Made by a program: the position numbers and the translations under genes | The notes under the pieces: generated by a model | Database searches by the model: none | What the model saw: only the letters and a program-made list of their open reading frames with translations | Told to the model about the DNA's origin: nothing | From: a virus | Reading direction: 5' to 3' (one strand) | Virus record (IMG/VR): IMGVR_UViG_3300031576_000156 | Location: 1 to 39,571 of that record | Length of the DNA: 39,571 bases | Part shown: in pieces, positions 1,963 through 32,257 of the stretch | Numbering within the stretch: the stretch's first letter is position 1 | Layout of the letters: the number at the start of each line of letters is the position of its first letter

Positions 1963-2565
1963 ATGATGGAGAAGAAGTCCAAGGACGGCACTCAGCTGTC
2001 TACAACTACGCACACGATGAAACGCATGAAGGGCGATGAACGCTACGAAGGCGCTAAGTTTAAACTCGAGGGGTCGTTCCGAAAACGCGATGACGGCTGG
2101 CAGAAGTACAAGCATACGTTCGTGGACGAGATCCACGGGCATACCTACTACACGATTAACGATCGTAACGGAGCTCCGAACAAGTACTCAGCTCCTATGG
2201 GTGGGCATTTCCACGAGATGGAAGTGGATTGGAACACACCTAATAAGACCGGCGATGGACCGACGGTTAAGTGCGGCCCACCGCTCGAGTTCGTGCGGGT
2301 AAAGACCAGAGGAGGGGGCTCACAGAAGAAAGTCGTCCAGGTCAGATGGAACACCGAGATAGACGGTGAGTATATCTACGATAACCACACTCATGATGTG
2401 ACGTATAAGTATAACGAGATCGTCTCCCCCACCGAGCAGAGAAGGCAAGCCGACGAAGATAGAGCCAAGATAGCGCATCTCACTAAAGGCGCGGTCCCGC
2501 GGATGACGACCACACCTACCGGCTCTACCGGGACAGGGGCTCAGATTGAGGATGTATCGGCATGA
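1963..2565 (+). CDS. Hypothetical 200-residue histidine-rich protein
   Basis: Starts at ATG 1963 after GGGGG. The product is hydrophilic and contains repeated His-rich patches, including GGHFHEMEVDW near residue 85 and DNHTHDVTYKYNE near residue 140, which could bind metal. The C-terminal 25 residues are Thr/Gly-rich and probably unstructured. It overlaps the next gene by ATGA. Immediately upstream of the terminase module, it may be a virion or packaging accessory protein, but I recognise no family. Confidence 0.65.
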   Translation: MMEKKSKDGTQLSTTTHTMKRMKGDERYEGAKFKLEGSFRKRDDGWQKYKHTFVDEIHGHTYYTINDRNGAPNKYSAPMGGHFHEMEVDWNTPNKTGDGPTVKCGPPLEFVRVKTRGGGSQKKVVQVRWNTEIDGEYIYDNHTHDVTYKYNEIVSPTEQRRQADEDRAKIAHLTKGAVPRMTTTPTGSTGTGAQIEDVSA

Positions 2566-2924
2566 CTCAATTTTTAGACATATATTTCCGTGTTGGTAGG
2601 GAGTTTGAGATGGCTGTCAAGGAGGCCACTAAGGAAAACCTCGAGCTCCAGCGCTTTTGCCTCACGCACGAACGTAGATCACTAGTGGTTAATAAGCTGT
2701 GCGCTGAGCTTGAGGCGTTAGAAAAGAGTCGGCGATTCAACCGAGAAACAGTCCTTGCAAATTCCAATAAGATAGTCGCTGGAGTTGTGGCAATGTTCGT
2801 CGCCACTGCTAAGGCGCATAAGGACCAGCAGAACAAAAGCGAGCTAGCTAGGAACTTCCTATCAAACGAGGCACGAGCTAAGGAGGAGATGGCCAGCATC
2901 TTTCGGGAGGCTACTCAGCAGTGA
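2562..2924 (+). CDS. Hypothetical helical protein upstream of terminase
   Basis: 120 residues, rich in Ala, Glu, Lys and Arg, predicted almost entirely alpha-helical with coiled-coil character and one moderately hydrophobic segment (IVAGVVAMFVATA, around residues 71-83). It overlaps both neighbours by 4 bases (ATGA at the start, GTGA at the end), so it belongs to the packaging operon. It has no DNA-binding motif that I can name. It might assist terminase assembly, but this rests on position alone. Confidence 0.6.
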   Translation: MTQFLDIYFRVGREFEMAVKEATKENLELQRFCLTHERRSLVVNKLCAELEALEKSRRFNRETVLANSNKIVAGVVAMFVATAKAHKDQQNKSELARNFLSNEARAKEEMASIFREATQQ

Positions 2925-3262
2925 GTAACAGATGGAAGCCGAACGAAGAGCAGATTAAACAGATCAGTACGATGGCTGGCCTTGGAATGACTGAGACTCA
3001 AATCTCTGCTGTCATGGACGTCTCGGTCAGTACCTATCAACTAGCCCTAAAGAAAGACCTTGCACTGTACCAAAGTGTATTAAAAGGCAGAGCGTTAGTT
3101 AGTTCTAACATTTTGAAAACAGCCTACAATCAGGCGATGTCTGGGAACACGGCAATGCTGATCTTCTGGCTTAAGTGCCGCGAGCGATGGTCTCCTCCTA
3201 GAGAAGATTCTCTTGAGCGGGTTGAGGACGGGTACGCGTTCGATAATGGCGAAAACTCTTAA
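2921..3262 (+). CDS. terS: Terminase small subunit
   Basis: 113 residues starting at GTG 2921, overlapping the previous stop. The N-terminal 55 residues read as a helix-turn-helix (EQIKQISTMAGLGMTETQIS, then VSVSTYQLAL). The C-terminal part carries the SGNTAMLIFWLKCRERWSPP segment seen repeatedly in phage small terminases. It would recognise the packaging site and load the large subunit, encoded immediately downstream with a 17-base overlap. The length is normal for this type. Confidence 0.82.
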   Translation: MSNRWKPNEEQIKQISTMAGLGMTETQISAVMDVSVSTYQLALKKDLALYQSVLKGRALVSSNILKTAYNQAMSGNTAMLIFWLKCRERWSPPREDSLERVEDGYAFDNGENS

Positions 3263-29761: not shown

Positions 29762-30604
29762 TTATATCCCCATCAACCTCCTAAACGCCGTCCTGTATTG
29801 CATCCACGGACAGCTATTGCCCAAGGTTCTAATGCGCTTGTTCCGAAACTTGTGCCCATGATCCACTCGATGAAAGATGCTGGACATTGCGTGCCAGTCG
29901 TTTCTTTCCATAGCGCCGGCAAGTTCGGACTGTTCCGCTTCAAGTCGCTTTTGTATCCCGCATGGCGATAGTCTCTCGCTGTCGGTGGCGGTATAAGGCC
30001 CTTCCTCCACATTGCCGATAATGTGTACCGTTTTCTTCCTACTCTCCCCGCTGCTCCACCCTGATTGTATCCGCCTTCGTTCGCGCAAGGCGTGAGCAGA
30101 GTGGGCAAGCAGGAACCATCTCTTTCGTTGATGCGGTAGACCGACATCGGATGCGGCGAGATGACCGTCTCTGACTTTGTAGGATAGTCCCTCAAACGAA
30201 TCTCGGATCGTCTTGATAAACTTTCTAACACCAGGCCATACATTTTCGACGAACACAAACGACGGGCGAATCTCTTCCGTAAGCCTGACAATCTCCCAGA
30301 ATAGCGACGACTGCCTGCCGCCCAAGCCGCGGCGAGCTCCAGCAAGGCTGATGTCGGTGCATGGGAATCCTCCGTAAATGATGTCTGGACGCACTGGGAG
30401 CAAACCTCCGCGAAGAGTTGTAACGTCGTCCCAGAGTGGAGCTTGGAATATCTCTCCCCGATACATGCGTGATAGCAACAATCTTTGAGCGAAATCGTCG
30501 TTCTCACAATAGGCAACGGGCCGGACCCACGGTGCCAAGGCTTCACTGACCCATCCTCCACCGGAGAAGAGATCGAGTCCGTTGATTCTGCTAGCACTAG
30601 CCAC
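29762..30604 (-). CDS. DNA cytosine-5 methyltransferase
   Basis: 280 residues. Motif I DLFSGGG at 11-17, motif II region CEND at 33-36, motif III WDDV at 58-61, catalytic GGFPC at 78-82 with nucleophile Cys82, ENV at 120-122, QRKRWFLLA at 159-167 (motif VIII) and the end motif LGNSCP near residue 262. All core motifs are present in order, so it is probably active and protects phage DNA. The target-recognition part is short. Start GTG at 30604 overlaps by two bases the GTG of a second long frame covering the same DNA. Ribosome site GAGAGG is about 11 bases away. Confidence 0.9.
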   Translation of the reverse strand: MASASRINGLDLFSGGGWVSEALAPWVRPVAYCENDDFAQRLLLSRMYRGEIFQAPLWDDVTTLRGGLLPVRPDIIYGGFPCTDISLAGARRGLGGRQSSLFWEIVRLTEEIRPSFVFVENVWPGVRKFIKTIRDSFEGLSYKVRDGHLAASDVGLPHQRKRWFLLAHSAHALRERRRIQSGWSSGESRKKTVHIIGNVEEGPYTATDSERLSPCGIQKRLEAEQSELAGAMERNDWHAMSSIFHRVDHGHKFRNKRIRTLGNSCPWMQYRTAFRRLMGI

Positions 30605-30606
30605 AC
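29773..30606 (-). CDS. Overprinted second frame within the cytosine methyltransferase gene
   Basis: A 277-codon frame that begins at a GTG sharing a base with the upstream TAG (TAGTG) and two bases before the methyltransferase GTG, and stays open to within 11 bases of its end. Its N-terminal half is Ser/Arg-rich without known motifs. Its C-terminal half has LPTL at 167-170, PPTARDYRHAG at 207-217, RNSPNLPAL near 224-232 and FIEWIMG at 245-251, then ALEPWA. These resemble the ends of proteins often encoded with phage cytosine methyltransferases (typically PTPTARD and FVEWLMGFP). It may be a genuine overlapping gene, or a shadow of conserved methyltransferase codons. Confidence 0.4.
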   Translation of the reverse strand: MWLVLAESTDSISSPVEDGSVKPWHRGSGPLPIVRTTISLKDCCYHACIGERYSKLHSGTTLQLFAEVCSQCVQTSFTEDSHAPTSALLELAAAWAAGSRRYSGRLSGLRKRFARRLCSSKMYGLVLESLSRRSEIRLRDYPTKSETVISPHPMSVYRINERDGSCLPTLLTPCANEGGYNQGGAAGRVGRKRYTLSAMWRKGLIPPPTARDYRHAGYKSDLKRNSPNLPALWKETTGTQCPASFIEWIMGTSFGTSALEPWAIAVRGCNTGRRLGG

Positions 30607-30911
30607 TAGTCTCTTACCTCTCTGGCTTCTTCTTCTAAGTGATCGTACTCACGTACAATACCTATGCGATATTCTCCGGGGGGGATTTCGATAGGTTTGT
30701 GCTCCTCATGCCTAAGCATCACTGGCGTTACAACTCGCAAATGTCTCGTCTTGTTTTTAATGTGAGTTACAAACTCATACTCTCCACCGTAAAGGCGGTG
30801 AGCGTGTCCAGTCGCCTCCCCGTGTTGCACGATGGGTGATTGGATAGGTTTTAAGTCGCCGCTTGGAATTGTCTCTGCGTGAAACAACACATCACCTTGC
30901 TGGATAAGCAT
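30606..30911 (-). CDS. Conserved hypothetical protein (GEATGHAH / HEEH family type)
   Basis: 101 residues. The landmarks QQGDVLF at the start, HGEATGHAHRLYGG in the middle, LRHEEHKPIEIPPGEYRI and the ending EYDHLEEEAREVRD are the signature of a small protein widespread in phages and bacteria, of unknown function. The conserved His residues suggest a metal-binding beta fold. Its stop overlaps the start of the dual-frame methyltransferase locus, so expression is coupled to it. Ribosome site AAGGAA. Confidence 0.75.
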   Translation of the reverse strand: MLIQQGDVLFHAETIPSGDLKPIQSPIVQHGEATGHAHRLYGGEYEFVTHIKNKTRHLRVVTPVMLRHEEHKPIEIPPGEYRIGIVREYDHLEEEAREVRD

Positions 30912-30926
30912 TTTTACTTCCTTTCC

Positions 30927-32204
30927 TTAAGTTAAAATCTCTGGGGATTTGTAAACGTCCACACCGTTGCGCCAGGCTAATGCCTGATCCACCGTCTTGC
31001 AATCTGGATGCACCCCTTCGACGTGCCACGTATCGATCGATGGATTTTTCATTTTAAGATACGGCCTATGTCTACCGTCTTTCAGATCGAGTAACAGTAA
31101 TTCGTAGGTACCTTCTTTATCGATACTTTGTGCGTTTAGATCTCGGCACAATCTTTCGGTGCCAATTTTTCTCACTATCTCCCGGCGTATTTCGGCATTT
31201 TTTTCAGTGAGGATAAGCGCAGCACTAAGCTGATCGCTCGGGGTTTCTACAATCTCTTGTGTGACTCTTACGCCGTTTAGTCCGTACACGGAAAACCCAT
31301 CCCGGTAGCGGACACAAGGGCCACTATCACAATGTATTTTCCCGGCAGCATTGACCTTTATTATTTCCGGTTTCTCACTAAGAACCGCAATATTTCGATA
31401 CGGGTATACCCAAGACGAATGCTTAGTTAGATCTGAAAGCGGGACAGCTTTTTCCGTTTGTTCAACAAGGTTACAAACCTCACGAAAAAAGTCACACCAT
31501 CCTAAATACCCTGCGTCGAATTGTCCTAAGTAACGATAGTAAGGATTAAAATTCTCTTTATACGAATCCCCCACAGAATCCCACACGGAATCCACCACGG
31601 AAGCCCTCACGGAAGCCCCCACAGAATCCCACACGGAAGCCCCCACAGAATCCCACACGGAAGCCCCCACGGAAGCCCTCACGGAATCCCCCACGGAAGC
31701 CCTCACGGAATCCCACACAGAATCCCACACGGAATCCCCCACGGAAGCCCTCACGGAATCCCACACGGAATCCCACACGGAAGCCCACACGGAAGCCCTC
31801 ACGGAATCCCACACGGAATCCCACACGGAAGCCCACACGGAAGCCCTCACGGAAGCCCCCACGGAATCCCACACGGAAGCCCCCACGGAAGCCCTCACGG
31901 AATCCCACACGGAATCCCCGACTTTAGTCACCGTCGCTTTTGTAGAAATGCTCGCTAGGATTTTCCTCATTAGCTTTTCGTTTTTTAGAATTCCTACGAG
32001 CACACATCCGGCAAGCGGTGAAGTAGTCCAGATAATTTGTTTCGGCTGATCAAGCCCTGCAATTTGATAGCAACGTCTTAGCGCAGCTTCCGCTACATCT
32101 CTATCGGCTGGTGTGGTAGACAATCCAATCTTTAACCACTTGTCAGCAAACTCAGGGAAACGCTCCGTTTGCTCTGGCGTTAGCTCCTCAATTTTTTTAC
32201 TCAT
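30927..32204 (-). CDS. DUF6745-like protein with 30-unit tetrapeptide repeat
   Basis: 425 residues from ATG 32204, chosen because it overlaps the stop of the tiny upstream gene (TGATG); an ATG six bases earlier is also possible. Residues ~1-94 are helical. Residues ~95-214 consist of 30 consecutive four-residue units of type Ser-Val-[Trp/Arg/Gly]-[Asp/Ala]. The remaining ~210 residues are a conserved-looking domain (YLGWCDFFREVCNL, YGLNGVRVTQEIVETP, TWHVEGVHPDCKTVDQALAWRNG) that I associate with DUF6745. The repeats would make a regular beta solenoid or rod. Function unknown. Confidence 0.75.
   Translation of the reverse strand: MSKKIEELTPEQTERFPEFADKWLKIGLSTTPADRDVAEAALRRCYQIAGLDQPKQIIWTTSPLAGCVLVGILKNEKLMRKILASISTKATVTKVGDSVWDSVRASVGASVWDSVGASVRASVWASVWDSVWDSVRASVWASVWDSVWDSVRASVGDSVWDSVWDSVRASVGDSVRASVGASVWDSVGASVWDSVGASVRASVVDSVWDSVGDSYKENFNPYYRYLGQFDAGYLGWCDFFREVCNLVEQTEKAVPLSDLTKHSSWVYPYRNIAVLSEKPEIIKVNAAGKIHCDSGPCVRYRDGFSVYGLNGVRVTQEIVETPSDQLSAALILTEKNAEIRREIVRKIGTERLCRDLNAQSIDKEGTYELLLLDLKDGRHRPYLKMKNPSIDTWHVEGVHPDCKTVDQALAWRNGVDVYKSPEILT
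31563..31922. repeat. 12-bp tandem repeat array, 30 units
   Basis: Thirty uninterrupted 12-base units within the DUF6745-like gene. On the coding strand each is Ser-Val plus two variable codons: TGG, AGG, GGG (once GTG) and GAT or GCT. Unit combinations counted: Trp-Asp 11, Arg-Ala 7, Gly-Ala 5, Gly-Asp 4, Trp-Ala 2, Val-Asp 1; Arg-Asp is absent. Ser is TCC except four TCT and one TCG; Val is GTG in all but one. Length changes keep the frame. Confidence 0.97.
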
Positions 32205-32257
32205 CACCATCCCCGAATTTCTTTTAATTGGCCAATGGTTAAATGATTGATGTTCAT
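32204..32257 (-). CDS. 17-residue coupled peptide
   Basis: MNINHLTIGQLKEIRGW. Its ATG overlaps the stop of the zinc-finger gene (ATGA) and its TGA overlaps the next ATG (TGATG), so ribosomes could pass through three genes without leaving. The wording LTIGQLKEI is similar to tiny phage peptides. It may exist only to relay translation. Very short, so support comes from the double overlap. Confidence 0.45.
   Translation of the reverse strand: MNINHLTIGQLKEIRGW

Follow-up and report, generated by a model that had tools for sequence, protein, structure and literature searches.

The small gene of M.EcoHK31I, a C5 methyltransferase with YGGCCR as its target, was reportedly found by Lee et al. (1995) to be encoded in a nested frame. 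The enzyme consists of two polypeptides, in such a way that motifs I-VIII and X belong to the large subunit and motif IX to the smaller chain (PMC3404938). M.AquI is split in another manner, into an alpha and a beta chain, with the break located after motif VIII and with part of the variable region and motifs IX and X in beta (PMC3404938). In the 5093-group phages of Streptococcus thermophilus, two C5 methyltransferase products overlap totally, which is called striking in the passage of the report devoted to them, where pneumococcal phage MM1 and Tn5252 are also cited; as proposed for the locus described here, one piece of DNA gives two products, each in its own frame, and that passage contains no selection analysis (PMC5601072). 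Multispecificity based on tandem target-recognition domains is known from the enzymes of the Bacillus phages SPR, SPbeta, phi3T, rho11 and H2 (PMC8936443). Two-frame C5 methyltransferases are already known, in the searchable papers, as isolated cases (M.EcoHK31I, the 5093 group and an "internal gene" of Paenibacillus phage Shelly), and what is apparently new here is their breadth, the demonstrated dual constraint and the modular, putative recognition cassettes of the overprinted frame, since no paper on any of these three aspects was found in a search that left most of the subscription literature outside. To our knowledge, long same-strand overlaps in which both frames are demonstrably selected are uncommon among documented prokaryotic and phage genes.

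The locus belongs to a 39.6-kb IMG/VR record (the window, i.e., the whole stretch of 39,571 nucleotides that was analysed), which reads as a tailed phage judging by its ORFs; among the PHROGs matches of the eight neighbouring ORFs searched there are a single-strand DNA-binding protein and a Cas4-domain exonuclease. The first-pass annotation had reported two overlapping frames, and both are present on the minus strand with exactly the coordinates, lengths and GTG starts given there, frame B covering frame A nearly end to end, while the third frame contains 12 stops across the same stretch. The overlapping TAG, GTG and GTG are likewise confirmed in TAGTGTGG, where the G of the TAG of the upstream gene (30608-30606) is the first base of the GTG of B.

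29762..30604, minus strand: frame A, putative large subunit of a C5-cytosine methyltransferase; 280 aa, GTG start, with motifs I-VIII and X
29773..30606, minus strand: frame B, putative overprinted small subunit, +1 to A; 277 aa as drawn from GTG 30606
30602..30606, minus strand: overlapping start codons GTGTG, as read from the bases (GTG of B at 30606-30604, GTG of A at 30604-30602)

We consider it very probable that two overlapping frames of this locus code for a heterodimeric C5-cytosine methyltransferase similar in kind to M.EcoHK31I, with a nested small subunit that carries target recognition. Frame A would provide the large subunit, in which an unconserved spacer separates the catalytic fold (motifs I-VIII) from motif X, and frame B the small one, with an N-terminal part over motifs IV-VIII, one or more exchangeable cassettes of about 38 residues and motif IX. 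The N-terminal part of B, overprinted on IV-VIII, would dock on A, and we infer that both chains assemble into a dimer that would methylate the phage DNA where B directs, presumably shielding it from host restriction. The copy in the window may be active, and B may adopt the fold of a recognition domain.

The nature of frame A is clear from its matches to PF00145 (Pfam, E=3.9e-28) and phrog_363 (PHROGs, 2e-44), and the C5-methyltransferase motifs I, IV (PC), VI (ENV), VIII (RxR) and X are all present and in order.

30539..30580, minus strand: motif I of A (GLDLFSGGGWVSEA), from the translation and alignment A2
30350..30364, minus strand: motif IV of A, with the catalytic Cys (PCTDI), from alignment A2
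30239..30247, minus strand: motif VI of A (ENV), from alignment A2
30116..30133, minus strand: motif VIII of A (HQRKRW), from the translation and alignment A2
29804..29824, minus strand: motif X of A (LGNSCPW), from alignment A2

When compared with single-chain methyltransferases, the profile of the A family gives an alignment that spans motifs I-VIII and, in the particular case of M.HhaI, residues 12-177 and 296-319 align with profile A2 and 178-295 are skipped. Neither a recognisable target-recognition domain nor motif IX was found in the A frame of the window, and the 112 A sequences of dual loci contain no motif IX-like stretch either, which, together with the skipped part of HhaI, implies that A by itself falls short of a complete single-chain enzyme.

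This arrangement is widespread. At least 120 viral loci of IMG/VR matched a degenerate DNA pattern for WVEWLMGFP in frame B, and, for nearly all of those listed, reading one base behind gives an open methyltransferase frame that contains LGN; as these loci were selected on the motif, their informative parts are the open A and the long B. A scan with profile A5 gave at least 600 stretches, 598 of those listed being relatives, and the 80 loci kept from it (some of whose contigs are common to the first scan) all have an open A frame. A regular expression for motifs IV, VIII and X is passed by 55 of these 80 loci, and the one failure inspected by eye has the variant spellings ENS and GNGQVP; in the 23 loci that failed an earlier motif check, frame A is 254-360 codons long. 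Searching with the A frame of the window retrieved locus L004 (45%) and nine others, several of which have B-type frames laid out differently. Natural single-chain A-B fusions were found neither among the 80 loci of the A5 scan, examined by motif, nor among the loci of the first scan. Under the two-frame reading, the annotation of many phage methyltransferases as a single gene leaves out half of the enzyme, and, without frame B, neither the prediction of the specificity nor the correct cloning of the enzyme is possible. With hundreds of natural examples and internal controls, the family can also show how a protein evolves inside the frame of another gene.

Could frame B be an accidental open frame, i.e., an untranslated shadow of the conserved codons of the methyltransferase? 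Part of the similarity among the N-terminal parts of B (SPAKTSA, SGMMRSG) does mirror the FPCQDIS and GYDAEW of A, and the B frames of the window's clade show no residue conservation ahead of motif IV, as a shadow would have it. Nevertheless, when only the synonymous codons of A were shuffled within the overlap, keeping its protein and codon usage fixed, frame B of the window was stop-free in none of 20,000 permutations, with a mean of 8.2 stops. The same applies to the family: in 112 dual loci the longest run of the +1 frame averages 213 codons vs 109 after shuffling (p<0.05 in 100 of them), whereas the single-chain controls (30 bacterial methyltransferases) show no such effect, their +1 open runs having chance length (86 codons vs 84 shuffled). 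The stops scattered through the second frame of homologues, which the first-pass annotation had named as evidence against its proposal, are thus not seen in relatives. Moreover, B of the window is 37% identical to that of L004 over 242 residues (136 bits), compared with a mean of 39 and a maximum of 76 bits for the shadow of A in 1,000 shuffles; the match to B of the more distant L056 reaches 65.9 bits, scarcely over its shadow maximum of 63.5.

The fourfold sites of A lead to the same point. In 41 pairs, in which each sequence was used once and only sites with the same amino acid were counted, their identity rises from 44% upstream of B to 58% over the 90 nt that precede motif IV and to 72% in the overlap, and falls to 42% past the end of B, with an excess in the overlap in 38 of the 41 pairs (p=1e-10), whereas the amino-acid identity of A follows the opposite trend (61% in the overlap, 84% upstream). 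This constraint, limited to the overlap, places frame B of the relatives under selection from around motif IV (30350..30364) onward. Between motifs IV and VIII, A is the more conserved product (84.7% vs 69.5% for B, with a fourfold identity of 73%), and between VIII and X it is B (58.8% vs 48.7% for A). In the clade of the window, fourfold identity is 33/72 in the overlap vs 10/41 upstream (p=0.019, the pairs being non-independent); the nearest relatives of its A are about 42-45% identical and the best match of its B 37%, and the constraint is consequently weaker in this immediate clade. A B that is only a shadow was rejected on the permutation test, the fourfold sites and the codon signature of the cassettes (see below), which are conserved in frame B alone, and we regard it as extremely improbable. 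What had been proposed as an overprinted partner protein is thereby strongly supported, since many viral relatives have B open, conserved and under selection; as in M.EcoHK31I-type systems, a small ORF is nested in a large one in another frame, and both are selected.

Regarding the identity of B, the copy in the window taken alone has only a weak PHROGs match, to phrog_1008 (E=0.018), labelled "DNA methyltransferase", and since the B proteins of the relatives match that same family at 1e-18 to 1e-33, the motifs that the first-pass annotation recognised in the second product are real. Its further suggestion, that a separate family arose by frame change, was half right: phrog_1008 corresponds to the second frame of this very gene rather than to a separate gene derived from it, and in two loci (L071 and L074) B extends to include motif X too. 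Pfam and NCBIfam hold no family for B, tblastn of the window's B against phages and a related-locus search with it as query gave no match, and neither did its profile against PDB sequences. The AlphaFold2 models are of low confidence (pLDDT of 56 for B of the window and 62 for that of L019, the latter with 67 sequences), with no Foldseek match in the PDB. This lack of a recognisable fold would suit an independent protein with a role of its own (e.g., in anti-restriction or regulation) and with nothing but the locus in common with A. However, we find this very unlikely, given that the motif IX-like stretch is in B and none is in A, that B of L071 and L074 also has motif X, with A ending after VIII, and that a similar FVEWMMG precedes motif X within frame A itself in the L005-type loci.

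The motif IX-like stretch deserves closer attention in the heterodimer reading.

29818..29886, minus strand: motif IX region of B (CPASFIEWIMGTSFGTSALEPWA), degenerate with respect to the LNPxWVEWLMGFPxGWT of relatives (alignments A1 and A5)

We take LNPxWVEWLMGFPxGW to resemble motif IX of M.HhaI. Such a stretch is found in B in 109 of 112 relatives, a set mostly gathered by that very motif, and B of L139 carries a canonical motif IX, RMLPLEYERLQGFPDNW, where positions 270-320 of PF00145 match (E 2e-4). In L071 and L074, B carries the cassettes followed by motifs IX and X, and B of L074 matches phrog_363 over the IX-X end; when B was compared with 17 single-chain methyltransferases by whole-profile hhalign, motif X of this L074-type B was aligned and motif IX was not. 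These two loci (L071 4342-5598 and L074 5158-6030) look like an AquI-like split in which the two genes still overlap, and they resemble M.AquI in having motif X in the small subunit, whereas the window and most relatives keep it in A. Another layout is seen in L005, L007, L008 and L010 (near 2339-3223), where the IX-like stretch directly precedes motif X in A and a B of 146-167 codons comprises only the cassette region. The division of labour also differs in phage 5093, whose +1 frame has 143 codons and whose frame A, unlike here, retains motif IX (RKLTPRECWRLQGFP). As for the window, the LNP and GFP typical of motif IX are missing from its degenerate version (FIEWIMGTSFGTS) and motif X has an uncommon spelling (GNSCP), so that this copy may be drifting. 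Both motifs diverge from those of the relatives at the same bases (29818-29886) with no length change, due to either drift or a compensated local change. In L053 (6975-7916), B continues beyond motif IX, and the paired cysteines of its additional tail (CQSCGATEALERHHPDYSRP) resemble, by eye, a zinc finger or HNH motif.

The interval between motifs VIII and X, where known enzymes have their target-recognition domain (PMC3404938), is occupied in B of the relatives by "(W)PTPTAxD" cassettes with a median of 38 residues, and two candidates can be drawn in the window.

29998..30108, minus strand: cassette 1 of B (LPTLLTPCANEGGYNQGGAAGRVGRKRYTLSAMWRKG), 63% identical to a cassette of L004; its NQGGAAGRVG is common to L103
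29887..29997, minus strand: cassette 2 of B (LIPPPTARDYRHAGYKSDLKRNSPNLPALWKETTGTQ), resembling cassettes of L224, L017, L250 and L055

A simple rule, which overlooked the two of the window, counts none in 9, one in 42, two in 83, three in 30 and four to six in 10 of 174 B proteins. The same cassette can be found beside catalytic domains that are merely 30-60% identical, and in such pairs (75-85% B identity) codon positions 1, 2 and 3 of B give 0.79, 0.85 and 0.45, while frame A over the exchanged cassettes has a conservation of 0.39 vs 0.41 for the unused frame. With this codon signature in B, and with A as unconserved as an unused frame, B is the coding frame between VIII and X and A an open spacer. 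Multispecific methyltransferases of Bacillus phages are single chains read in one frame; their tandem recognition domains resemble the candidate ones of the present loci, where the tandem cassettes sit instead in the overprinted frame. Their tandem recognition domains (PMC8936443) lend support to the idea that the cassettes would recognise DNA, which otherwise comes from their position. M.EcoHK31I, compared here by its published description, has motifs I-VIII and X in the large chain and IX in the small one, as would be the case in the relatives here, and differs in that its predicted recognition domain was assigned to the large subunit (PMC3404938), whereas the conserved frame of the interval is here that of B, with repeated exchangeable cassettes; a gene named EcoHK31I was not identified in a plasmid search. 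The same layout is seen in gp55 and gp56 of Paenibacillus phage Shelly, a different phage with a distant sequence, in which A has motif X and B has WPTPAAQD-like cassettes and LNPEWVECLMGFPIGW, gp56 being described, by annotation only, as "g55 internal gene". On a tentative basis, and with somewhat less than an even chance of being right, these loci might form a very large and mostly unrecognised phage class whose specificity is set by tandem, horizontally exchanged overprinted cassettes, one target each, with the catalytic frame as a tolerated spacer in that region. If so, phages could swap or add specificities by exchanging cassettes while both frames stay open. In L038, a tandem pair of dual-frame methyltransferase genes with unlike cassettes is located near 818 and 1860.

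How would B be translated? Two elements of the window may be relevant.

30617..30623, minus strand: AGAGAGG, possible ribosome site for both starts, from the sequence only
30544..30559, minus strand: alternative start of B, GTG at 30546-30544 with GGAGG at 30559-30555, eight bases upstream

That one ribosome site could serve both frames, as the first-pass annotation had put forward, holds as a possibility for the window's clade, in which B opens within about 10 nt of the start of A (the window, L004 with ATGCGTGG, L056 with TTGAATGG and L136 with ATGAATGG), and not for most other relatives, where B starts inside A, ahead of motif IV, with a Shine-Dalgarno site of its own. A frame-B ATG open to motif IV and with a Shine-Dalgarno match of at least 4 bases is present in 59 of 106 loci, compared with a mean of 7.3 and a maximum of 14 in shuffles. 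In the window, no ATG, GTG or TTG was found in frame B from 146 nt before to 16 nt after the codon of the motif IV Cys. A start shared by A and B is plausible there, and the leader of B before motif IV is open in all four members of the clade, which in each of them could be due to chance (p=0.10-0.31); the GTG at 30546 with its GGAGG would be the alternative, and BLAST similarity to B of L004 starts right after it.

The absence from the window of the internal start that other loci usually have 20-80 nt ahead of motif IV is also what would be expected if a programmed frameshift near motif VIII of A led into B, so that one chain contained I-VIII, the cassettes and IX, with or without a separate A. 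Such a chain would restore the usual order of motifs I-VIII, recognition domain and IX, and both frames are open throughout the region. However, selection on B starts ahead of motif VIII (as seen in the fourfold identity between IV and VIII), the ATG codons with Shine-Dalgarno sites in frame B far exceed the 7 expected, and the fused chain would miss motif X in most loci, which together make a frameshift unlikely.

Two further observations concern the surroundings of these genes. In L056, a tRNA-Arg (tct) gene (1471-1542) ends immediately ahead of the methyltransferase start. In the window, a 12-bp tandem array of 29.6 copies (31564-31918), which encodes DSVW/ASVR repeats within the ORF 30927-32210 of the minus strand, has a second frame that is open for 116 codons, apparently due to the repeat alone.
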